A stretch of 64,000 bases of DNA from Anaerolineales bacterium (GTDB taxonomy: Bacteria; Chloroflexota; Anaerolineae; Anaerolineales; Villigracilaceae): the NCBI GenBank assembly GCA_017985935.1, contig JAGNWT010000010.1:1-64000 (forward strand), read 5' to 3'. This document shows positions 22,204 through 33,934 of this stretch, piece after piece. The position numbers were made by a program, and so were the translations under genes. The stretch's first letter is position 1; each line of letters opens with the position of its first letter. The notes below the pieces were generated by a model, which saw only the letters and a list, made by a program, of their open reading frames with translations, did no database searches and was not told the DNA's origin.

Positions 22204-22551
22204 TTATTCCTTCAGAACTCCGACAAATATTTGTCCATCGCGGATCTGAACCGGATAGGCTGGAATATCCACCACAGCGGGCATCTGCACTGCCTGCCCG
22301 GTTCTCACATCGAACTCCGCACCGTGTCGCGGACAAACAACATTGTGACTTTCGAGCAATCCATCTCCCAGCGGACCGTCATCATGGGTGCAAACATCGC
22401 CGATCGCAAAGTACTGCCCGGCGATATTGAAAATAACGATCGGCTTGTCGCCAAGTTCCACGAACAAGCGCTCGCCATTCGGGAGTTCAGAAATGGGAGC
22501 GATCTCCACAAACTCCAGTTTTGATTCTTCCAATGCTTTGTAATTGAACAT
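22204..22551 (-). CDS. Rieske [2Fe-2S] ferredoxin-like protein
   Basis: A 115-residue Rieske-fold protein. The cluster ligands are in CTHDDGPLGDG (Cys-X-His) and VVCPRHGAEFD (Cys-X2-His). It lacks a membrane anchor, so it is a soluble ferredoxin of the kind that serves dioxygenases or the SUF pathway. It is the last gene of the SUF operon, 5 nt after sufU. That fits a role in supplying electrons for cluster assembly, as often seen in SUF loci of Gram-positive-like bacteria and Chloroflexota; this is inferred from position. Confidence 0.9.
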   Translation of the reverse strand: MFNYKALEESKLEFVEIAPISELPNGERLFVELGDKPIVIFNIAGQYFAIGDVCTHDDGPLGDGLLESHNVVCPRHGAEFDVRTGQAVQMPAVVDIPAYPVQIRDGQIFVGVLKE

Positions 22552-22556
22552 ATTCT

Positions 22557-22952
22557 TTACTCCACCAGATCGTCGCTGGCTTCACCAAGCCCGTAAACAC
22601 CAGCCTTCAATACCTTGAGAGAAAGCAAGGCGCACTTCAAGCGAACCGGACCCAGGTCAATTCCGAGGAGGTCCAGCACGGATTCCTTGTTCAACTTCTT
22701 CACCTCTTCAAGCGGTTTGCCGATGATGAATTCCATCAACAGATCGGCGGAAGCCTGTGAGATCGCGCAGCCATGACCATCAAAGCGGGCATCGGTCACC
22801 ACCCCGGAGGAATCCACCCGCAGATCGATCTGAATATGATCGCCGCACAGAGGATTGTTATCTGCAAAGGTAATATCACGCGGATCGAGCTTCCCGCGAT
22901 AGGCAGGGTTTTTATAATGCTCAATGATGACTTCTCGATATAGATCATCCAT
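22557..22952 (-). CDS. sufU: SufU iron-sulfur scaffold/sulfur acceptor
   Basis: A 131-residue IscU-fold protein. The three conserved cysteines are in NNPLCGDHI, GHGCAISQAS and LKCALLS, together with the aspartate following the first cysteine. The sequence between the second and third cysteines is longer than in IscU, the usual mark of SufU, which takes persulfide from SufS by zinc-ligand exchange. The ATG at 22952 (MDDLYREVII) is preceded by AAGG; an in-frame extension to 23060 has no family similarity. It lies between sufS and the Rieske gene. Confidence 0.93.
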   Translation of the reverse strand: MDDLYREVIIEHYKNPAYRGKLDPRDITFADNNPLCGDHIQIDLRVDSSGVVTDARFDGHGCAISQASADLLMEFIIGKPLEEVKKLNKESVLDLLGIDLGPVRLKCALLSLKVLKAGVYGLGEASDDLVE

Positions 22953-23000
22953 AAGGAACCTTCTTTGTGTTTGAAATTGATTTTGAAAAGGCAAAGAAAA

Positions 23001-23046
23001 ACAGCGGCATGTGGAAGAAGTGTATCGTTCTCCACTATACCGCTGT
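23001..23046. other. interrupted hairpin between sufS and sufU
   Basis: ACAGCGG (23001-23007) pairs with CCGCTGT (23040-23046) and, inside it, GTGGA (23011-23015) pairs with TCCAC (23031-23035). It lies in the 186-nt gap inside the operon and could be a processing or partial termination point that sets sufU levels. It has no T-tract on the minus strand. Confidence 0.5.
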
Positions 23047-23138
23047 AGTATTACCGTCACTGGCTTGGGGGATTTCCTGAACGAAAGGACCGGGCGCAGT
23101 CAGGATACTTGTTTCGCTTCATGGAGTCGTCTTTCGTT

Positions 23139-24365
23139 TTACGCGAAGTATTTTTTGACCTTGTAAATCCCATCCACCAGCATGTCCACTTCCTGCTTTG
23201 TGCTGTAAAGATAGAAGGATGCGCGGCTGGTGGCAGGGATGCCAAATTTCTCATGCAGGGGCTGGGCGCAGTGATGTCCAGCCCGCACCGCGATCCCATC
23301 CTGATCGAGGATCTGTGCCACGTCATGGGGGTGAATCCCATCGAGCGTGAAAGCTGCTACGCCGCCCTTCTTGTCAGCCGTGGGACCGAACAACTTAACA
23401 CCTGGAATTTCCACCAGGCGTTCGAGCGCATACTCAGTGATCTCATGCTCGTGCGCGGCAATCATATCCATGCCGACCGCTGTGAGGTAATCCACCGCCG
23501 CGCCAAACCCAACCGCTTCCGCGATGGCGGGAGTGCCTGCTTCAAATTTATGCGGCAGGGTGTTCGCGCGGAAGGAACGGAGTTTCACTTCCTTGATCAT
23601 GTCGCCGCCGCCCAAAAACGGGGGCATGGATTCCAACAGGGCAGCCTTTCCATACAAAACGCCTATGCCCGTCGGTCCGCACATCTTATGCGCGGAGAAA
23701 GCGTAGAAGTCCGCGTCAAGGGCTTGCACATCCACTTGCAGGTGCGGGACAGATTGCGCACCATCCACCAATGTGACCGCACCCGCGTCATGAGCCATGC
23801 GGATCATTTCAGCGACGGGATTTATGGTGCCGAGGACGTTGGACATGTGCGTAAACGAGACCAGTTTCGGGCTCCGGTCAAGGAGCGATTTGTAAGCCTC
23901 CTGATCAAGAACGCCATCTTCGGTCACAGGGATGAAATCCAGTTCAATATCGCGCTCCGCTTGCAGCATGTGCCACGGAACGAGGTTGCTGTGATGTTCC
24001 ATCTCGGTCAGAACGACAAGGTCGCCCTGCTTGAGATTTGCGCGTGCCCAACTATACGCGACAAGATTGATCGACTCGGTGGTGTTGCGGGTGTAAATGA
24101 TCTGCCGTGCCGATGCGGCGTTAACGAATTTTGCAATGCGTTCGCGCGCGCCTTCGTAAAGCGCGGTCGATTCTTCAGCCAGTGCATGCACACCGCGATG
24201 AATGTTCGCGTTCGATCGGCGGTAAAAATCATCCATCGCCTGAATGACCGATAAAGGCTTCTGCGATGTCGCCGTGGAATCAAGGTAGGTCAATCGCACG
24301 CCGGGGCGCACTTCGCGATCAAGGATGGGAAAATCTTTTCTGATCTCAGTTATGTTTAGTTTCAT
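23139..24365 (-). CDS. sufS: SufS cysteine desulfurase
   Basis: A 408-residue PLP enzyme of the class V aminotransferase fold, group II desulfurase. The PLP lysine is in FYAFSAHKMCGPTGIG and the phosphate-binding TTESINLV is present. The catalytic cysteine sits in RAGHHCAQPL on the short loop typical of SufS. It removes sulfur from cysteine and passes persulfide to SufU. It is followed by sufU after a 186-nt gap with a hairpin. Upstream, only 23 nt separate it from the basic-protein gene. Confidence 0.96.
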   Translation of the reverse strand: MKLNITEIRKDFPILDREVRPGVRLTYLDSTATSQKPLSVIQAMDDFYRRSNANIHRGVHALAEESTALYEGARERIAKFVNAASARQIIYTRNTTESINLVAYSWARANLKQGDLVVLTEMEHHSNLVPWHMLQAERDIELDFIPVTEDGVLDQEAYKSLLDRSPKLVSFTHMSNVLGTINPVAEMIRMAHDAGAVTLVDGAQSVPHLQVDVQALDADFYAFSAHKMCGPTGIGVLYGKAALLESMPPFLGGGDMIKEVKLRSFRANTLPHKFEAGTPAIAEAVGFGAAVDYLTAVGMDMIAAHEHEITEYALERLVEIPGVKLFGPTADKKGGVAAFTLDGIHPHDVAQILDQDGIAVRAGHHCAQPLHEKFGIPATSRASFYLYSTKQEVDMLVDGIYKVKKYFA

Positions 24366-24388: not shown

Positions 24389-25000
24389 CTAATAATCAGG
24401 AATGAAATCCCTTTTATCTTTTACGGTTTTCTTGCTGCCAACCTCGCGGATGTGTTCGGAGTTGACCGGATACCAAAGAATGCGGTCGGGAACCATCCAA
24501 CCGTCGGTTAGATACACGTTGGAGCGGAACTGCACCGCCACCATCTTGTGATCCACCTGCACAACGATGCCTTTGATCCAACCACGAATGCGTTCGCGAT
24601 TCTTGTCGTGGTCGCAGAATACTTCCACAGTATCGCCCACTTCGAACGCGCTTTCCATCTCAGGCGCTTTCATGAAATCGAATTGAGCGCCGCGGGTCAC
24701 ACGCTTGATGGGTCTGCGCTTTTCGAGCAGCGGGTTCATCGGACGCTTGACGACCGGCACAACGGCAGGCTTCGGAGTCGCGAGCAATTTTGCCTTTGGC
24801 GCTTCAGCAACTGCCTGGGGTTGAACGGCAGCCACAGGAGCGGGCTTGTGTTTTGACTCTGCAGATTTTACAGACACGGTCTTGGGCGGTTTCGCCTTGA
24901 TCGCAACCTTCGCGATCTTCTTCACCGACTTGGTCTTCGCCGCCGCCTTTGGTCCCACCTTGATCTTTGCCTTCACTTTTACTTTCGATTTCACGGTCAT
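24389..25000 (-). CDS. unknown protein with lysine/alanine-rich tail and small beta-barrel-like domain
   Basis: The 203-residue protein has two parts. Residues 1-95 are low complexity, rich in Lys, Ala, Val and Pro (repeats such as VKVKAKIKV and AKPPKTVSV), like histone H1-type tails. Residues about 105-203 are globular: FEVGDTVEVFCDHDKNRERI, then WIKGIVVQVDHKMVAVQFR, DGWMVPDRILWYPV, which looks like a Tudor/SH3-type small barrel. I do not recognise a named family. It sits between sufD and sufS, so it may be part of the SUF unit; nucleic-acid or anionic-surface binding is a guess from the tail. Confidence 0.65.
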   Translation of the reverse strand: MTVKSKVKVKAKIKVGPKAAAKTKSVKKIAKVAIKAKPPKTVSVKSAESKHKPAPVAAVQPQAVAEAPKAKLLATPKPAVVPVVKRPMNPLLEKRRPIKRVTRGAQFDFMKAPEMESAFEVGDTVEVFCDHDKNRERIRGWIKGIVVQVDHKMVAVQFRSNVYLTDGWMVPDRILWYPVNSEHIREVGSKKTVKDKRDFIPDY

Positions 25001-25082: not shown

Positions 25083-26414
25083 CTACCCCGAGAGTTTATC
25101 CTTTATCGCCTGCTGAAATCTCTCGCGCACGCCTTCAAATGGGATGCGCTGCATGATGGGGTCAAAGAAACCTTCAACCACCAATCGCTCGGCATCAGCC
25201 TGCGGAATGCCGCGGCTCTTGAGATAGAACAACGGCTCTTTCTCCAACTTGCCGACTGTCGCACCGTGGGTGCAGCGCACATCATCCGCGAGGATCTCCA
25301 AACCGGGGATCGAGTCCGCGCGGGACTGGTCATCCAACACCAGATTTCGATTAGCCTGGTAGCCGTCTGTCTTTTGCGCGCCGGGCGCAACATAGATCAT
25401 TCCCTGCCACACCGAGCGGCTCTTGCCGCGCAGCGCGCCTTTGAAGAGCAGGTCGCTTGTGGTATGCGGAGCGAGATGATTCTGCTGGGTATCGTGATCT
25501 AGGTGCTGGGTGCCGTCGGTGAAATAAAAACCAGACATGCGTCCCTGCGCGCCTTCGCCCGCAAGGTCCAGATCGGAGAAATTCTTGGTCAAGCGCGACC
25601 CCACTGCGCCGAAGATCCAATCGAGGTTGCCGCCGCGCTCGACACGGGCGCGCTCATGCGAGAAGTTCCACACGTGGCGTCCCCATGATTGCAATTCCAC
25701 AAAGCGCAGGTTTGCATCCTTGCCGACAGAAATTTCAACGATGCCGGCGTGCATGGCGTGACCGACCTCATTGGGTGAAGCGGACTCGTGGACATAGGTC
25801 ACTGACGCGCCGTCTTCCACACAGACGATCAAATGTGAGAAGTGAGCAAGGTCTGCGCCCGGTCCCCACAGCACAGAGTGAAGCGGAGTTTCAACCTGCA
25901 CATTCTTCGGTACGTACAACAACACGCCGTTCCCAGCTAAAGCAGAAGCGAGCGCGGCGAACTTGCCGTCTTCGGGCTTGACCACCTGACCGATCAGTTT
26001 CTTGAGCAATTCAGGGTACTCACGCTCGGCGGTGCGGATATCGGTGAAGACAACGCCTTTCGAAACGAGAGCAGGGTCAAGGTCTACGCGAGAACCGCCG
26101 GGCAGAAGTGTGATCTGTCCGCCGTGCTGTTCGCCCGTCAACGGTTTGAGAAGATACTCGGGCACAATAGGCAGGTCTTCAAATGCGCCGTCCTGCGGAA
26201 TTTTGAAATCCGAAGCGGGGAGCAATCTCAGGTCAGTGCGGCGCCAGGCCTCATCTGTGGTGACGGGCATGGAAAATTTTGTGAATGCATCCCAAGCCCT
26301 GGCGCGAACATCCTTCAGCCCGCCTTCGGGAATGGAATTATTGGTGAATGAAAACTCTTTCGCGGCAGAGTCGCGACGAGTTCTGGTGACTGATACTTTT
26401 GGTTTCTCTTGCAT
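25083..26414 (-). CDS. sufD: SufD, Fe-S assembly complex subunit
   Basis: A 443-residue SufB/SufD-family protein. The beta-helix core shows GASVTYVHESASP, LRFVELQSWGRHVWNF, QGRMSGFYFTDGTQHLDHDTQ and the C-terminal CTHGATVGKLEKEPLFYLKSRGI. It pairs with SufB and the SufC ATPase in the SufBC2D scaffold that builds clusters. It is one-third longer at the N-terminus than the conserved core, as usual. It lies 69 nt downstream of sufB, in a gap that holds an imperfect inverted repeat. Confidence 0.95.
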   Translation of the reverse strand: MQEKPKVSVTRTRRDSAAKEFSFTNNSIPEGGLKDVRARAWDAFTKFSMPVTTDEAWRRTDLRLLPASDFKIPQDGAFEDLPIVPEYLLKPLTGEQHGGQITLLPGGSRVDLDPALVSKGVVFTDIRTAEREYPELLKKLIGQVVKPEDGKFAALASALAGNGVLLYVPKNVQVETPLHSVLWGPGADLAHFSHLIVCVEDGASVTYVHESASPNEVGHAMHAGIVEISVGKDANLRFVELQSWGRHVWNFSHERARVERGGNLDWIFGAVGSRLTKNFSDLDLAGEGAQGRMSGFYFTDGTQHLDHDTQQNHLAPHTTSDLLFKGALRGKSRSVWQGMIYVAPGAQKTDGYQANRNLVLDDQSRADSIPGLEILADDVRCTHGATVGKLEKEPLFYLKSRGIPQADAERLVVEGFFDPIMQRIPFEGVRERFQQAIKDKLSG

Positions 26415-26428
26415 GTGTTTAATCCATT

Positions 26429-26484
26429 GAAAGTCGAAGGTTCAAAGTTGAAGGTAAATGCTCACCTCTCAACCTGTAACTTTC
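26429..26484. repeat. imperfect intercistronic inverted repeat (GTTGAAG-type)
   Basis: Direct units GTCGAAGGTT and GTTGAAGGT (26433-26455) face CCTCTCAACCTGTAACTTTC (26465-26484) on the other arm. It is similar in build to the elements at 7183 and 39292 and lies between sufD and sufB. Confidence 0.45.
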
Positions 26485-27911
26485 TACCCAATCGACCCTT
26501 CCATCTGTAATTGAATTAATCGATTCATTTCCACCGCATATTCCATCGGCAGTTCTTTGACGAGCGGCTCAATAAAGCCAGAAACGACCATGCCTGTGGC
26601 TTCCTCTTCGGAAAGTCCGCGCGACATGAGGTAGAAAAGCTGTTCCTCACCGACCTTGGAGACCGAAGCCTCGTGACCAATGGTCACATCATCTTCATCG
26701 ATCTCGATCGAAGGATAGGTGTCGGAGCGGGATTTCGGGTCGAGCAGCAACGCATCACACACCACATTAGACTTCACGCCCTTCGAGCCTTTGTACACTT
26801 TGACGAGCCCGCGGTAGGAAGCGCGTCCGCCATTCTTGGAAATGGATTTGGATGTGATCTTGCTGGTGGTGTTCGGCGCAAAATGCACCATCTTCGAGCC
26901 GGCATCCTGAATTTGACCTGCGCCTGCGAATGCCATGGAGAGCATTTCGCCATGAGCGCCGGGCTCCATCAAATAGCAGGAGGGATATTTCATCGTGAGC
27001 TTGGAGCCGAGGTTAGCATCCACCCACTCATGCGTGCCGTTCTCAAAAACTTTTGCACGCTGGGTCACGAGATTGAATACATTGGTGGACCAGTTCTGGA
27101 TAGTCGAATAGCGCGAGCGAGCGCCTTTCTTGACCACGATCTCGATCACACCGGAATGGAAGGAGTTGGTGGTGTACTGCGGAGCGGTACAACCTTCCAC
27201 ATAATGCACCGAAGCGCCTTCATCCACAATGATGAGCGTGCGTTCGAACTGACCGACATTGGCGGTGTTCAAGCGGAAGTAAGCCTGCAATGGCAGATCC
27301 ACTTTCACACCCTTCGGCACGTAGACGAACGATCCGCCCGACCAGACAGCGCTGTTCAATGCGGCAAATTTATTATCTTCAATGGGAACGACCGTGCCAA
27401 AATATTCACGGAACAGGTCTGGGTACTGACGCAAGCCATCTTCGATCGAGAGGAAGATCACGCCCTGCTTTTCGAGATGTTCAAGGATCGAGTGATAGAC
27501 CATCTCCGACTCGTACTGCGCGCCGACGCCTGCCAAAAATTTCTGTTCGGCTTCGGGAATGCCCAGTTTGTCAAATGTGTTCTTGATGTCGGATGGCACA
27601 TCGTCCCAGTTCTTCTCGCTCTTCTCGGTCGGCTTGACGTAATAAAAAATATTATCAAGTTCGAGATCGCCAAGCTCGGGTCCCCAATTGGGCATGGGGC
27701 GGCTGATGTAATGCTCGTACGCCTTAAGGCGGAATTCGAGCATCCATTTCGGTTCGCCCTTCATGCGCGAAATATTTTCCACGACCTCGCGGCTTAATCC
27801 GCGCTCAGACTTGAATACATAATTGTCGTCGCGGTCATGGAAGCCGTACTTGTAATCGCCAATTTCATCGAGGATCTTGGCGTCTTCGTTAAGTTTGGTA
27901 TCTTCTGCCAT
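26484..27911 (-). CDS. sufB: SufB, Fe-S assembly complex subunit
   Basis: The 475-residue SufB has the hallmark N-terminus [20 protein letters not shown], the central [40 protein letters not shown], and C-terminal [20 protein letters not shown]. It is the Gram-positive-like SufB form rather than the enterobacterial one. I chose the ATG at 27911 (MAEDTKLN); the frame opens at a GTG 9 nt earlier. It is the major scaffold for Fe-S assembly with SufC and SufD. Confidence 0.96.
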
Positions 27912-27986
27912 TCGGTTCACCGTTTATTTTTCTGATGAAGCCCCGCATCGAGCGGACCTTCGACCTACTACCGATTAAAAGAGATT

Positions 27987-28763
27987 CTAGGCCTCTGCCG
28001 TTTCTTCATACTTCTCGCGCACCCAATCATAGCCGTGCTCTTCAAGGTGCAGCGCGAGGTCGGGTCCACCAGATTCGACGATGCGACCATCGAGCATGAT
28101 GTGGACGAATTGAGGCTTGATGTAATTCAACAGGCGCTGATAATGCGTAATGACCAGCACGCCAAGTTCGGGTCCAGAAAGAGCGTTTACGCCTTCAGAG
28201 ACGATGCGCAGGGCGTCAATATCCAGCCCTGAGTCGGTCTCATCCAAAATGGCGATCTCTGGTTTGAGGGCTGCCATTTGCAGGATCTCGGCACGCTTCT
28301 TTTCACCGCCGGAAAAACCATCGTTGAGATAGCGACCCGCAAAAGCATGGTCCATCTTGAGGGTATCCATCTTTTCCTTGAGCATTTTTCGGAACTCAGG
28401 AATGGGCATGCCCTTATCTTCGGGGTTGACCGCGCGGCGACGGGCGTTGAGCGCAGAACGCAGGAAGTTCGCCACGGTCACGCCGGGGATGGCGACCGGG
28501 TACTGAAAGGCCAAAAAGATTCCAGCGCGAGAGCGTTCATCAGGCTCCAGTTCCAGAATGTTTTGCCCCTTAAAGATGACTTCGCCATCAGTTACCGTAT
28601 AATTGGGATGCCCCATCAATGTGTAAGCGAGTGTAGACTTGCCTGTGCCGTTCGGACCCATGATCGCATGGATTTCACCCTGATTAATGGTCAACGAGAG
28701 TCCTTTGAGAATTTCCTTACCTTCAATGCTAACGTGCAAGTTCTTGATTTCGAGTTGCGACAT
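27987..28763 (-). CDS. sufC: SufC ATPase
   Basis: A 258-residue ABC ATPase. Walker A is GPNGTGKST, the Q-loop lies in [10 protein letters not shown], the signature is [11 protein letters not shown] and Walker B is [12 protein letters not shown]; all match SufC. It powers conformational change of the SufBC2D complex. It is the first gene of the SUF operon, with an AGGAG site and a strong promoter about 50 nt upstream. Confidence 0.97.
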
Positions 28764-28817: not shown

Positions 28818-28846
28818 ATTATAGCAGGGTTGGATAAATATGTCAA
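28818..28846 (-). promoter_or_regulatory. suf operon promoter, full consensus
   Basis: On the minus strand TTGACA (28841-28846) and TATAAT (28818-28823) are exactly 17 nt apart, a perfect housekeeping-sigma promoter. The start point would be near 28811, giving a 5' leader of about 48 nt for sufC. The operator-like dyad overlaps the first base of the -35 box. Confidence 0.9.
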
Positions 28847-28871
28847 TATTTATGATATTTTTCTAGTATAT
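28846..28871. promoter_or_regulatory. candidate SufR operator at the suf promoter
   Basis: ATATTTATGA, six-base spacer, TCTAGTATAT. The arms share ATAT-N4-GA / TC-N4-ATAT symmetry. The same 26-bp element with two changes occurs at the sufR promoter (32207-32232). It abuts the -35 box, which fits repression. Two further TTCTA-containing sites lie at 28889 and 28914 (ATTCTAGAAT is a perfect palindrome). Confidence 0.75.
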
Positions 28872-28996
28872 TTCACTACGCGCAATTATTCTAAAACGGG
28901 TTTATCAATGAATATTCTAGAATTTGCACAGATAAGCTGAATCCCTTTCGCAATGCCTTATTCTTCGGTCTGTATTACACTTGAATGACCTGACTT

Positions 28997-29002
28997 TATA
29001 AA
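28997..29002 (+). promoter_or_regulatory. -10 box of phosphoesterase gene
   Basis: TATAAA ends 7 nt before the ATG at 29010, with a weak -35-like ATTACA at 28974. There is no ribosome site, so the transcript may be leaderless. Confidence 0.45.
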
Positions 29003-29009
29003 AGTAAAA

Positions 29010-32000
29010 ATGAAAAAAATCCCACTTCAAAAAAGATTTCCCTACTGGCTGATTATCACTTCCACACTGGCGGCAAGCATTTTTTCGTCAGTAAATCCCA
29101 AACAAGCGTCGGCAACGAGTGAAGACAGCGCGAACGCTCTCCCATCTCTTCAGACCGAAAATATCGTCTTCGCTGTGATCGGAGATTATGGCATTGCGGG
29201 TCAAGCCGAAGCGGATGTTGCGAATCTGGTCAAGAGCTGGAATCCCAACTTCATCGTCACGGTCGGCGACAACAACTACGAAAACGGGCTTGCCGAAACC
29301 ATTGACCAAAACATCGGGCAGTACTATCACGATTACATTTTCCGCTACACAGGCAAATACGGAGCCGGCTCCCCCACCAACCGATTCTTTCCCGCCCTTG
29401 GAAATCACGATTGGGGAAATAACGGCATCAGACCTTACCTTGCATATTTCACCCTGCCAGGAAATGAAAGATATTACGACTTCGTCAGCGGTCCCGTCCA
29501 TTTCTTTATTTTAGACAGCGACCCCAAAGAGCCGGATGACGTCTCTTCCACGGGCAAGCAAGCCGGGTGGCTCAAGAACGGACTAGCCGCATCCACCTCC
29601 ACCTTCAACATTGTCATCGCGCATCACGCGCCTTACTCCTCAGGCAGGCATGGACCGAACACGTACATGCAGTGGCCCTTCAAAACCTGGGGAGCACACG
29701 CCGTCTTAAGTGGGCATGACCATACCTACGAAAGGCTTTTGATCAGCGACCTGGTCTATTTCGTCAACGGGCTGGGCGGAGATACTCCTTACAACTTCGG
29801 CACCACCGTAGTGGGCAGCCAGGTCCGCTTCAACAAAGATTACGGGGCAATGCGCGTGGAAGCGAACAGCGTCTCCATGAAGTTTCAATTTTACACACGG
29901 GCAAACATTCTCGTGGATGAGTACACCATCACAAAAAATGTACCCATCGTCAATTCGATCCTCCGCGCCGCCGCCAGCCCAACCAACGCCTCGACCATTA
30001 ATTACTCTGTCACTTTTTCTGAACCAGTGACCGGCGTGGATGTTTCAGACTTTCAATTGACTGCAACAGGAATTAGCGGCGCATCCGTCACAAGTGTGAG
30101 CGGCGCAGATGCGACTTACACGGTCTCAGTCAATACTGGAAGCGGCAGCGGATCGCTCAGGCTGGATATTCTTGACGACGACAGCATCCTCGACGCAACC
30201 AATAATCCCCTTGGGTCGTTGGGTGCTGGCAATGGAAATTTCAGCAACGGCGAATCGTACGTGGTCGATAAAATTCCCCCAGTCGTAACTGCCATCACAC
30301 GCGCAGGCGCGTCACCCACTTACGCGCTCAACGTGGACTTTAACATCGTGTTCTCTGAACCCATGAGTGGCATCAATGTCTCGGACTTCAAACTTGAAAC
30401 AGCAGGCATTACGGGCGCATCAGTCAACAGTGTAAGCGGCGCAGGCACGAATTACGTTGTTTCCGTCAATACGGGCAGCGGCAATGGCACAGTTCGCCTC
30501 GACGTGATAGACAACGACGCCTTCACAGACACGGTTGGTAACAAACTGGGCGGTGACGGCGCCGGTAACGGCAACTTCACCGGCGAGGCTTTCACGATCG
30601 ATAAATCCATCCCCAAAGTGATCTCGATCGCCCGGTCTTCTCCCAGCCTGACAAATGCGGCAAGCGTGGATTTTGTCGTGACCTTTTCCGCGTCTGTGAG
30701 CGGGGTGGACCCGAGCGACTTTTTCGCCGCCACAAATCTCAACAGCGCATCGATCGGCGCAGTGAGCGGTTCGGGCAATATTTACATCGTCACCGCCCTG
30801 ACCGGGTCTGGGGACGGCACATTGCAGATCAACCTCATCGATGACGACAGCATCCTAAACGAGGCAGGTACCCCTCTGGGTGACTTTGGGAAAGCGAATG
30901 GCGATTTTTCAGGCGGAGAAAGTTACACGATAGACAGAACCGCGCCTGTGGTGACATCGATCATTCGCTCGAGCGGGAATCCTTCCACATCTTCCAGTGT
31001 AAGTTTCATTGTCACTTTTTCAGAATCAGTGATCGGCGTGGAGCAGACCGACTTCTCGCTTTTCACGAACAGCATCTCCGGAACCTTTATCGAAGGCGTC
31101 AGCCCATCCGATCCGTTCTATGTGGTCAGCGTCAACACCGGAGACGGCACAGGCAACCTCCGTCTGGACGTGATCGATCATGACAACATCACAGATCTGG
31201 CTGGCAATTTCCTGGGCGGACTCGGCAGCGGCAACGGAAATTATATTAATGGCGAAACCTACACCATTGAAAAATCTGCGCCCGGCGTAACATCCATCAT
31301 CAGCGCCGGCTCAAATCCTTCGAATGCTTCCAGCATTGACTTCATCGTCACATTTTCAGAATCTGTGAGCGGAGTGGATGCCGCTGACTTTAGCTTGACC
31401 GCTCAAAATATCCTCAATGCTTCGATCATCACGGTCAATAATTTTGACCCTTTCTATATCGTCTCGGTGAATACCGGCGTTGGGATGGGAACTCTGCGTT
31501 TGGATTTTTTGGACAACGACAGCGTGCAGGATGCTTCGGGCAATAAACCCGGCGGCGACGGAATCGGGAACGGTAGTTTTTTCAACGGGCAAACGATTTC
31601 CATTGTCAAGGCGCAAACTAATTTCCCGCCCCCAACCCTGCGTGATCCCAAACGAAATTTTTTGACTAACAACTCAAGACCAGAATTCTCATGGATGAGG
31701 GTCCGCAATGCGGCAGCCTACGAGATATCCATTGCGTCAGATAATAATTTCACGAACATTCTTGCCACTCAAGTGGTCAATGGGGTTTCTTATACTCACC
31801 AGTCAAACTTAGCTGACGGGATATATTTTTGGCGCGTGCGGGCTTACGGTCCCGATCTTCAGCCCGGAAAAGACAGCGCCAACAACTCATTCATCGTAGA
31901 CACTTCCCCGCCGGTGGCTCCGGGATTGATCAGCCCTGTCAACGACGCGAACATCAGCGCAAGGCTGAAATTCTCCTGGTTCAAAATCCAGGATGCCACC

Positions 32001-32186
32001 CGGTACCAAATCGAGATCGACAATAATTCCGACTTTTCAAGTCCTGAATGGAGCTCGATCCGGTCGGAACCAGGTTATCAGATTCTAACCTTCCGCTCTG
32101 GCAGGTATTTTTGGAGAGTCCGCGCGAAGGATATGGCAGGAAATTGGGGCGACTGGTCGTTTGTAAATGTCTTCAATATCCGGTAA
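29010..32186 (+). CDS. secreted metallophosphoesterase with five Ig-like repeats
   Basis: The 1058-residue exported protein has an N-terminal signal segment (WLIITSTLAASIFSSV, possible cleavage near residue 36). Residues 50-300 are a purple-acid-phosphatase-like metallophosphoesterase with all ligands: VIGDYG, GDNNYENG, GNHDWGN, HHAPYSSG and GHDHTYER. Five repeats of 111-112 residues follow (311-867), each with VTFSE.VSGVD..DF and VSVNTGSGxGxLRLD..D.DS. Two fibronectin-like units (about 870-1058; PEFSWMRVRNAAAYEISIA, LKFSWFKIQDATRYQIEID) close the protein. It probably hydrolyses phosphate esters at the cell surface, with the repeats as a stalk or adhesive part. Confidence 0.85.
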   Translation: MKKIPLQKRFPYWLIITSTLAASIFSSVNPKQASATSEDSANALPSLQTENIVFAVIGDYGIAGQAEADVANLVKSWNPNFIVTVGDNNYENGLAETIDQNIGQYYHDYIFRYTGKYGAGSPTNRFFPALGNHDWGNNGIRPYLAYFTLPGNERYYDFVSGPVHFFILDSDPKEPDDVSSTGKQAGWLKNGLAASTSTFNIVIAHHAPYSSGRHGPNTYMQWPFKTWGAHAVLSGHDHTYERLLISDLVYFVNGLGGDTPYNFGTTVVGSQVRFNKDYGAMRVEANSVSMKFQFYTRANILVDEYTITKNVPIVNSILRAAASPTNASTINYSVTFSEPVTGVDVSDFQLTATGISGASVTSVSGADATYTVSVNTGSGSGSLRLDILDDDSILDATNNPLGSLGAGNGNFSNGESYVVDKIPPVVTAITRAGASPTYALNVDFNIVFSEPMSGINVSDFKLETAGITGASVNSVSGAGTNYVVSVNTGSGNGTVRLDVIDNDAFTDTVGNKLGGDGAGNGNFTGEAFTIDKSIPKVISIARSSPSLTNAASVDFVVTFSASVSGVDPSDFFAATNLNSASIGAVSGSGNIYIVTALTGSGDGTLQINLIDDDSILNEAGTPLGDFGKANGDFSGGESYTIDRTAPVVTSIIRSSGNPSTSSSVSFIVTFSESVIGVEQTDFSLFTNSISGTFIEGVSPSDPFYVVSVNTGDGTGNLRLDVIDHDNITDLAGNFLGGLGSGNGNYINGETYTIEKSAPGVTSIISAGSNPSNASSIDFIVTFSESVSGVDAADFSLTAQNILNASIITVNNFDPFYIVSVNTGVGMGTLRLDFLDNDSVQDASGNKPGGDGIGNGSFFNGQTISIVKAQTNFPPPTLRDPKRNFLTNNSRPEFSWMRVRNAAAYEISIASDNNFTNILATQVVNGVSYTHQSNLADGIYFWRVRAYGPDLQPGKDSANNSFIVDTSPPVAPGLISPVNDANISARLKFSWFKIQDATRYQIEIDNNSDFSSPEWSSIRSEPGYQILTFRSGRYFWRVRAKDMAGNWGDWSFVNVFNIR
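29940..31610 (+). repeat. five tandem coding repeats of about 333 bp
   Basis: Units begin near 29940, 30273, 30606, 30939 and 31275. The protein repeat is well conserved in its VTFSE and VNTGSG segments while DNA identity is lower, so these are old domain duplications under selection rather than a recent expansion. Confidence 0.85.
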
Positions 32187-32206
32187 ATACTTCAATTTTC
32201 GATAGG

Positions 32207-32232
32207 ATATTTATGATATTTATCTAATATAT
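32207..32232. promoter_or_regulatory. candidate SufR operator at the sufR promoter
   Basis: ATATTTATGA, spacer TATTTA, TCTAATATAT. It differs from the suf-promoter element at two positions only. Its last base touches the -35 TTGACA (32232-32237), so a bound regulator should block its own promoter. Confidence 0.75.
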
Positions 32233-32260
32233 TGACAATCGTTCATGTCTTGTGTATACT
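32232..32260 (+). promoter_or_regulatory. sufR promoter, leaderless
   Basis: TTGACA (32232-32237), 17-nt spacer, TATACT (32255-32260), six nt, then ATG at 32267. With a start 6-7 nt after the -10 box the mRNA begins at the start codon. Confidence 0.85.
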
Positions 32261-32266
32261 CAAAAC

Positions 32267-32890
32267 ATGAAATCTACGAGAGACAAGATCTTACAAACTT
32301 TACTTCAAAAGCCGCGCTCCACAATCAACACACTGGCTGAAGCTGTCGGCATAAACCCAATCTCTGTCCGGCATCATCTCACGAATCTTCAGATGGAAGG
32401 ATTGGTTGAAGGTCAGGAAGAACGCCACGGAGTGGGACGGCCGCGCCTGGTGTATTTATTAACCACAGAAGGCATGGAGCGCTTCCCCACCCGCTACATG
32501 CAGCTCACCACGCGCCTGCTTTCGCAAATGAAGGACACCATGCCAGAACCGGTGGTGGCCAAACTGTTCAATCAGATCGCTGAAGACCTCGCCAGCCAGT
32601 ATTCCAAAGACATGCAGGGATTGAGTATGGAAGAGCGCCTTGACTTCGTCAAGGATATGCTTGCTCGCGAAGGCTTCACTGTTGAATGGGAAAAGAAGGA
32701 TGGACAATATCAGATCCATGAGATCTCCTGCCCATACTATCAGATCGGCGTTGCCCACCCGGAAGTTTGTACTGTCGATCAGACCTTGATCTCAAAGATG
32801 CTTGCCCTGCCTGCGAATAAAGTTCAATGCATTTTGGACGGCGGCTCCCACTGCACCTACGTCATCCAAAAAGCAGATAACAAGAATTAA
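32267..32890 (+). CDS. sufR: SufR-type iron-sulfur-sensing transcriptional regulator
   Basis: The 207-residue DeoR/ArsR-like winged-helix protein has its HTH at residues 10-60 (INTLAEAVGINPISVRHHLTNL) and the wing with GVGRPRLVYLLTTEG. The C-terminal half has the SufR cysteine pattern: ISCPYYQIGVAHPEVCTVD, VQCILDGGSHCTYVI, which in cyanobacterial SufR binds a [4Fe-4S] cluster. It should repress suf and itself when clusters are plentiful. The ATG at 32267 is 6 nt after a -10 box; the frame extends 5 codons upstream into the promoter. The DUF59 gene follows after 24 nt. Confidence 0.9.
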   Translation: MKSTRDKILQTLLQKPRSTINTLAEAVGINPISVRHHLTNLQMEGLVEGQEERHGVGRPRLVYLLTTEGMERFPTRYMQLTTRLLSQMKDTMPEPVVAKLFNQIAEDLASQYSKDMQGLSMEERLDFVKDMLAREGFTVEWEKKDGQYQIHEISCPYYQIGVAHPEVCTVDQTLISKMLALPANKVQCILDGGSHCTYVIQKADNKN

Positions 32891-32914: not shown

Positions 32915-33262
32915 ATGAGCGAAACAGAAATCAATGAAATCCGCTGGACCATTCACGATACCCACCCGGACAAAGTAAAGAACGCCCGCGCCAAACTTTC
33001 TGAGGTGGTGGACCCCGAGATCGGAATGAACATCATCCAGTTGGGATTGATCCGCAATGTTGAGATCGTGGATGGGATCGGGCGCGTCAAAATGATCCTC
33101 ACCACACCGTTCTGTCCCTACGGACCCGCCATGATCGAGATGACCAAAGCCAAAGCCGTCGAAGGGTTGGATATGCCCGTCAACATTGAGATGGGCATGG
33201 AAATGTGGGACTTCTCCATGATGGAAGACCCCTCCGCTTTGGATTGGGGCATGTACGCCTAA
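32915..33262 (+). CDS. DUF59/MIP18-family Fe-S assembly factor (SufT-like)
   Basis: A 115-residue protein of the metal-sulfur cluster assembly family. VVDPEIGMNIIQLGLIRNVEI is the DPE motif strand, and TTPFCPYGPAMIEM carries the conserved cysteine. Such proteins (SufT, PaaD-like, human CIAO2) help transfer Fe-S clusters to target proteins. It is in one unit with sufR and has a GAGG site. It ends at a terminator shared with the convergent cupin regulator. Confidence 0.88.
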   Translation: MSETEINEIRWTIHDTHPDKVKNARAKLSEVVDPEIGMNIIQLGLIRNVEIVDGIGRVKMILTTPFCPYGPAMIEMTKAKAVEGLDMPVNIEMGMEMWDFSMMEDPSALDWGMYA

Positions 33263-33285
33263 AGACAGTAGTCTTTCAAAATAAT

Positions 33286-33324
33286 AAAAAAGGACGCCAT
33301 CCAAAACGGATGGCGTCCTTTTTT
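33286..33324. terminator. bidirectional terminator
   Basis: AAAAAAGGACGCCATCC (33286-33302) pairs perfectly with GGATGGCGTCCTTTTTT (33308-33324). It separates the SufR unit from the convergent XRE-cupin gene, whose stop overlaps it. Confidence 0.95.
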
Positions 33325-33934
33325 ATTCTCCCTTTTTCCAGTGCATCGCGTGCGGAATTTCGCCTTCTGCAAAACCAGAGATGACAACCAAAGCATTGGT
33401 GACGTTCTTCGATGGGTTCTTCCAACGATGCTGGAGCTTCGAAGCGAACAACAAACTATCCCCAGGCGACAAAAGGAAAACGCTCTTTTCCACGTGATAT
33501 TCCAACTGTCCGCGCAGACAAAACACGAACTCATGCCCCGAGTGGACGATGTTATGCGGTCCGCTGGATGAGCCGCTTTCCAAGGTCAGCATAAAAGGCT
33601 CCACCCTGCCGGAAAACTGCTCCCCACCCAGTGCCTCGAACACACCGCGAGTAAACGGCATTCGGGTGCGTTCATCAGACTTCAAAAAAACGATCTGCTT
33701 CTTCTCGGTCTCTGCGCCGAAAAACGCTGTGATCGAAACCCCCAAGGCATCTGCTAATTTATAAAGTGTACTGACTGATGGAGAGGTCTTTCCACGCTCG
33801 ATCATACTGAGAGCGTTCGCAGAAAGCCCGCTTTTTGTCGCGAGGGTCCGCATGGAAATGCCGCGCGCCTCGCGAAGTTCGCGCAGACTTTTAGCTACAT
33901 CGACCGAAGTTGCTTCTCTCACAAACGAATCCAT
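33323..33934 (-). CDS. XRE-family regulator with cupin sensor domain
   Basis: A 203-residue regulator. The HTH_3 domain (residues about 10-65) reads LRELREARGISMRTLATKSGLSANALSMIERGKTSPS. The cupin domain (about 100-195) has HNIVHSGHEFVFCLRGQLEYH and a second strand LQHRWKN, so it can hold a small ligand or metal. This architecture resembles PuuR and other metabolite sensors. The ATG at 33934 is set by GGAGG 5 nt upstream; the frame opens at a TTG four codons earlier. It is divergent from the ArsR-cytochrome operon, with a TATAAT box at 33978-33983. Confidence 0.88.
   Translation of the reverse strand: MDSFVREATSVDVAKSLRELREARGISMRTLATKSGLSANALSMIERGKTSPSVSTLYKLADALGVSITAFFGAETEKKQIVFLKSDERTRMPFTRGVFEALGGEQFSGRVEPFMLTLESGSSSGPHNIVHSGHEFVFCLRGQLEYHVEKSVFLLSPGDSLLFASKLQHRWKNPSKNVTNALVVISGFAEGEIPHAMHWKKGE

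Follow-up and report, generated by a model that had tools for sequence, protein, structure and literature searches.

A putative SufR operator distinct from CAAC-N6-GTTG at the suf and sufR promoters of an Anaerolineales bacterium

Introduction

The suf operon and the gene of its regulator, sufR, are divergently arranged in cyanobacteria. Earlier descriptions limit SufR to cyanobacteria and some actinobacteria (PMC8593673), and wherever it has been studied, that is, in cyanobacteria, Streptomyces and Mycobacterium tuberculosis, it acts as a repressor (PMC8593673, PMC6034842). The published SufR site, common to cyanobacteria and Streptomyces avermitilis, is CAAC-N6-GTTG (PMC8593673, PMC11995493). 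In the M. tuberculosis protein Rv1460, the cysteines C203, C216 and C244 are required (PMC6034842).

Here, we describe a locus from the Chloroflexota class Anaerolineae which resembles the cyanobacterial and S. avermitilis systems in that a SufR-family regulator lies beside suf and in that a putative operator covers both suf and sufR; the divergent orientation of the two units is that of cyanobacteria. As in those systems, this operator is an inverted repeat with a 6-bp spacer that overlaps core promoter elements. Unlike CAAC/GTTG, however, the Anaerolineae half-site is TATGA/TCATA, set in A+T-rich arms of ∼10 bp, and the recognition helix of the protein reads (N/S)PxxVRHH; moreover, the element sits at the −35 box, whereas the S. 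avermitilis operator sits at −10. A comparison of protein and gene order with Rv1460 (PMC6034842) shows that the three cysteines of the local SufR (C155, C168 and C196) are spaced in the same way, at intervals of 13 and 28 residues, and that the two proteins have control of suf in common, which is predicted for the local one; in M. tuberculosis, however, the suf operon begins with sufR. Our literature search, outside of which the RegPrecise predictions lay, found no work linking SufR with Anaerolineae, and an earlier in silico prediction is possible; going by their titles and abstracts, papers naming both SufR and Chloroflexi appear not to treat this link.

Results

The window, as we call the whole 64,000-nucleotide stretch of DNA analyzed, carries a suf operon on the minus strand. 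Its first gene is sufC (27987..28763, TIGR01978), followed by sufB (26484..27920, TIGR01980), sufD (25083..26414, TIGR01981), a protein without a family match (24389..25000) whose N-terminus is basic and of low complexity and whose C-terminus weakly resembles an Agenet domain (PF05641, below cut-off), sufS (23139..24365, TIGR01979), and a sufU-like ORF (22557..23060) that was judged by reading the sequence and whose start codon is uncertain. Directly after the latter lies a Rieske-type ferredoxin-like ORF (22204-22551), recognized by reading from its CTH...CPRH motif, which is possibly the last gene of the operon. On the plus strand, sufR (32267..32890) is followed after 24 bp by a sufT-like gene of the MIP18/DUF59 type (32915..33262, PF01883), with which it is probably cotranscribed, and then by a strong, bidirectional intrinsic terminator (33283..33327, plus strand). 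Between the two units, a plus-strand gene (29010..32186) encodes a secreted metallophosphoesterase of 1058 residues with Ig-like domains (PF00149, Big_12, Big_13).

The original prediction had placed a 26-bp dyad, in two copies that differ at two positions, upstream of both suf and sufR. Both copies were found at exactly these positions, in the same orientation on the plus strand; specifically, ATATTTATGATATTTTTCTAGTATAT at 28846..28871 on the suf side and ATATTTATGATATTTATCTAATATAT at 32207..32232 on the sufR side, with the shared pattern ATATTTATGATATTTWTCTARTATAT and the differences at position 16 (T/A) and position 21 (G/A). The accompanying claim that each copy adjoins or overlaps a TTGACA box 17 nt away from TATAAT or TATACT was borne out by a promoter scan, in which the suf and sufR promoters were the top matches of the window. 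The suf promoter (28818..28846, minus strand) combines a −35 box TTGACA (28846-28841), a 17-nt spacer and a −10 box TATAAT (28823-28818) preceded by TG, with 12 of 12 matches to consensus; that of sufR (32232..32260, plus strand) combines TTGACA (32232-32237), again a 17-nt spacer, and TATACT (32255-32260), with 11 of 12 matches. Each −35 box shares exactly 1 base with its copy of the element. The claimed symmetry holds in part: the left arm fits the palindrome that is found class-wide (see below), whereas the right arm, TCTARTATAT, is degenerate, so that both copies are imperfect dyads.

As a side note, the TATACT box of sufR (region 32255-32269) ends 6 nt 5′ of the ATG, and the sufR mRNA is therefore probably leaderless. 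A distance of 34 to 36 bp between operator and ATG is kept in ∼40 of 50 sites of relatives.

At up to three mismatches, the window holds no further match to the element (0.00 expected from 100 dinucleotide-preserving shuffles), and the entire 3.8-Mb genome holds these two sites only, with zero matches for the reversed pattern as a control. Exact matches were also sought in ∼85,000 species genomes, and all 78 that were found are in records titled as Chloroflexota. Of these, 77 are no more than 400 bp upstream of sufC and/or sufR; the 78th, beyond which the retrieved DNA ends, is upstream of a suf-type (sufC-type) promoter and ribosome-binding site. Similarly, a profile built from 30 diverse sites and run on 14 genomes, scoring 150 candidates per genome with rough model E-values, gave matches at E<0.05 all of which, among those inspected, are at suf and sufR; G147:C32:34553 is one further match in this range. 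This sequence-only profile yielded no convincing site for regulon members beyond suf and sufR in the 14 genomes.

Class-wide, palindromic expectation-maximization on 28 SufR upstream regions, about one per family, recovered ATATTTATGATAATTATCATAAATAT de novo, with the core TATGA-N6-TCATA; that is, inverted half-sites 6 bp apart. The window copies are thus imperfect versions of this palindrome. The total log-likelihood ratio of the motif was 237.6, as compared to 42.8 to 55.2 in 12 shuffled sets. When each family was left out in turn, 27 of the 28 regions scored better than their own shuffles at p<0.05, with 23 at the floor of p=0.002, and the motif was absent from a single region. As a negative control, we inspected the seven genomes of the class that are sufC positive and lack a good SufR match. 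The motif is missing ahead of sufC in five of them, and weak matches to it occur in the other two, each of which carries a distant SufR-like match; small as this set is (n=7), it lends moderate support to the link between SufR and the motif. In the same scan, two SufR-positive loci (L093 and L098) failed although the motif is seen there in other scans, which we think is due solely to contig ends shifting the assumed start. The same motif also abuts the −35 box at SufR-like genes that do not adjoin suf, in many Anaerolineae families (L126-L145).

These data bear on the possibility that no repressor is involved and that the element boosts two housekeeping promoters as a UP element rich in A+T, or as an extended promoter. 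Its position immediately upstream of −35 and its strong A+T bias would suit such a role. However, UP elements are neither conserved base by base nor symmetric around GA-N6-TC, the G and C positions of the core persist across families, and the same 26 bp occur at no other promoter of the genome and, in ∼85,000 genomes, essentially at suf and sufR only. We consider this explanation improbable.

The protein encoded by sufR has the hallmarks of its proposed function: an N-terminal winged helix of the repressor family, a C-terminal set of cluster ligands, C155-X12-C168 plus C196 (C-X12-C-X27-C), and linkage to the suf genes. These three cysteines are invariant in the ∼230 homologous sequences gathered. 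A fourth cysteine, C188, occurs in every SufR of the order to which the window belongs and in all those of the suf-linked loci of the class, and is absent from the group of Chloroflexota SufRs with CAAC sites described below. TIGR02702, a cyanobacterial model, was the best match in the library, although its score of 85.5 bits stayed below the equivalog cut-off of 178.8, which no genome of the phylum sample passed; we therefore claim membership in the broader SufR family and not in the cyanobacterial equivalog. A predicted structure (pLDDT 73.7, pTM 0.55), used solely for this purpose, placed the recognition helix at residues 31 to 43, which in most Anaerolineae SufRs reads (N/S/T)PxxVRHH or a close variant. 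A fold search with the prediction gave weak winged-helix matches, with no solved SufR among them.

Together, the positions of the two copies, their genome-wide specificity and conservation, the dyad symmetry, the gene linkage and the conserved ligands point to the 26-bp element as the operator of the local SufR, through which suf and sufR(-sufT) would be repressed by coverage of the −35 box. We put the probability of this reading, as judged from sequence, at roughly 0.87; that SufR binds, whether it represses or activates, and in which cluster state it does so are what we infer by analogy. In the proposed mechanism, SufR, as a dimer with its [4Fe-4S] clusters in place, would occupy the dyad and cover the adjoining −35 box, keeping both units silent, and loss of the clusters upon iron shortage or oxidative damage would release SufR, such that both units are expressed.

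SufR might also bind the element as an activator, or activate and repress depending on its cluster state. The promoter-scan positions place the dyad center near −48, which is further upstream than is typical of a simple repressor. Against this stand the repression by SufR wherever it has been studied (PMC8593673, PMC6034842) and the contact of the element with both −35 boxes, and we regard activation as no likelier than a UP element.

Alternatively, the element might be bound by another regulator, be it of the Rrf2/IscR type or a SufR paralog encoded elsewhere. The genome does encode a distant SufR-like paralog (G000:C60:30434, 28% identity), many genomes of the class encode at least two SufR-like proteins, and the motif's occurrence at SufR-like genes away from suf would fit as well. 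Yet the element goes with the promoter of sufR itself, as would be expected under autoregulation, and across most of the genus the local SufR retains ∼80 to 90% identity, where the paralog matches weakly. Such a regulator thus seems to us marginally less probable still than the two preceding explanations, and we retain the local SufR as the protein predicted to bind.

Of 61 genomes searched, counting that of the window, 58 have a SufR match, although some of these matches are distant SufR-like proteins. Within the genus, the element precedes sufR and sufC at every locus examined, with three or fewer differences, and is kept, one copy each, where sufC and sufR are separated by 3 to 16 kb or lie on different contigs; no unrelated matches came up in the search of this genome and its relatives. 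One genome of the genus (G014, 95% complete) has a nearly intact element at sufC and no SufR in the assembly. We set it aside as a natural sufR knockout, since the gene may simply be missing from the assembly.

In eight genomes of the genus, the locus is compact: sufC and sufR diverge 143 to 237 bp apart, with a single element (for example, TGTCAATATTTATGATATTTTTCTAGTATATTGACA) between back-to-back −35 boxes. All eight genomes from the remaining families of the order for which the complete region between sufC and sufR was inspected have the same arrangement, and it characterizes most of the other families of the order that have both genes together, which suggests that the compact form is ancestral. 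With one operator between two −35 boxes, one dimer could silence both promoters. The window represents a split form, in which the phosphoesterase gene lies between two direct copies of the operator, and here each promoter has a copy of its own. Most of the split genomes examined have a homologous phosphoesterase beside sufR, with ∼50% identity to that of the window. The sufR gene tree intersperses split forms with compact ones and forces at least five changes between them. Recombinational deletion between direct copies would, we reason, restore the compact form exactly. In one genome (G033), two copies of the element are separated by 227 bp that contain no gene.

As direct repeats flanking one gene, and with relatives lacking this gene mostly in a single-copy state, the copies might also be a scar, left by target-site duplication or recombination when the gene between them arrived, in which regulatory sequence was caught by accident. 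This is very improbable, since the element is already part of the promoter DNA shared by both units in the single-copy form and the copies are near-identical while the protein between them has diverged to ∼50% identity; such an event may account for the origin of the copies, not for their role.

The gap between suf and sufR (29010-32186 in the window) is a variable insertion region among split genomes. Two of them (G016 and G027) have additional large, probably secreted proteins there, and in two others (G020 and G035) other proteins replace the metallophosphoesterase.

Discussion

The original prediction also held that the site differs from CAAC-N6-GTTG and marks a SufR regulon with an operator distinct to this lineage. 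The first part is confirmed: the window promoters and the inspected upstream regions of relatives show ATGA-type half-sites at −35 in place of the published site. The second is supported, at the level of sequence, by the specificity of the element and by the degenerate palindrome found throughout the class. Of the outcomes named in the original prediction as refuting, neither of the two open to computation, unrelated matches across the genome and loss of the element upstream of suf in close relatives, occurred. The result is a predicted regulon of Fe-S biogenesis for a large and mostly uncultured class, with a motif that is specific enough for annotating suf promoters.

The published site turned up intact in another class of Chloroflexota (family f83), which served as a positive control. 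Here, 20 of the 22 SufR loci have an exact CAAC-N6-GTTG at the promoter, usually ∼35 bp before sufR. This family shares with the window the phylum, the SufR family, the N6 spacer and an operator that overlaps or adjoins −35. Unlike the window, it has the published half-site, a sufR that mostly precedes sufC-sufB in the same direction, and a recognition helix of the form (S/T)(K/R)Q(G/A)ALRH, for example, SKQGALRH. In a SufR tree, the CAAC and TATGA protein groups separate; since the label TATGA was assigned by class and not by site, the tree shows the grouping of the proteins and is no independent test of the operator.

We lean slightly toward the wider view that SufR switched its operator from CAAC to ATGA half-sites within one phylum, through changes in the recognition helix and with the N6 spacer held constant. 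The Anaerolineae form would then be a new class of operator, one site shared between back-to-back promoters, that was repeatedly split and perhaps re-fused by recombination between direct operator copies. With two operator types occurring naturally in a single phylum, it becomes possible to test which residues of the recognition helix specify the SufR site.

A further arrangement is seen in another Chloroflexota family (f77, loci L168-L171), where sufR and sufC form an operon in this order; its promoter has, at −35, a conserved tract resembling AAAAAGG(T)TTTTTG, possibly a third operator type.
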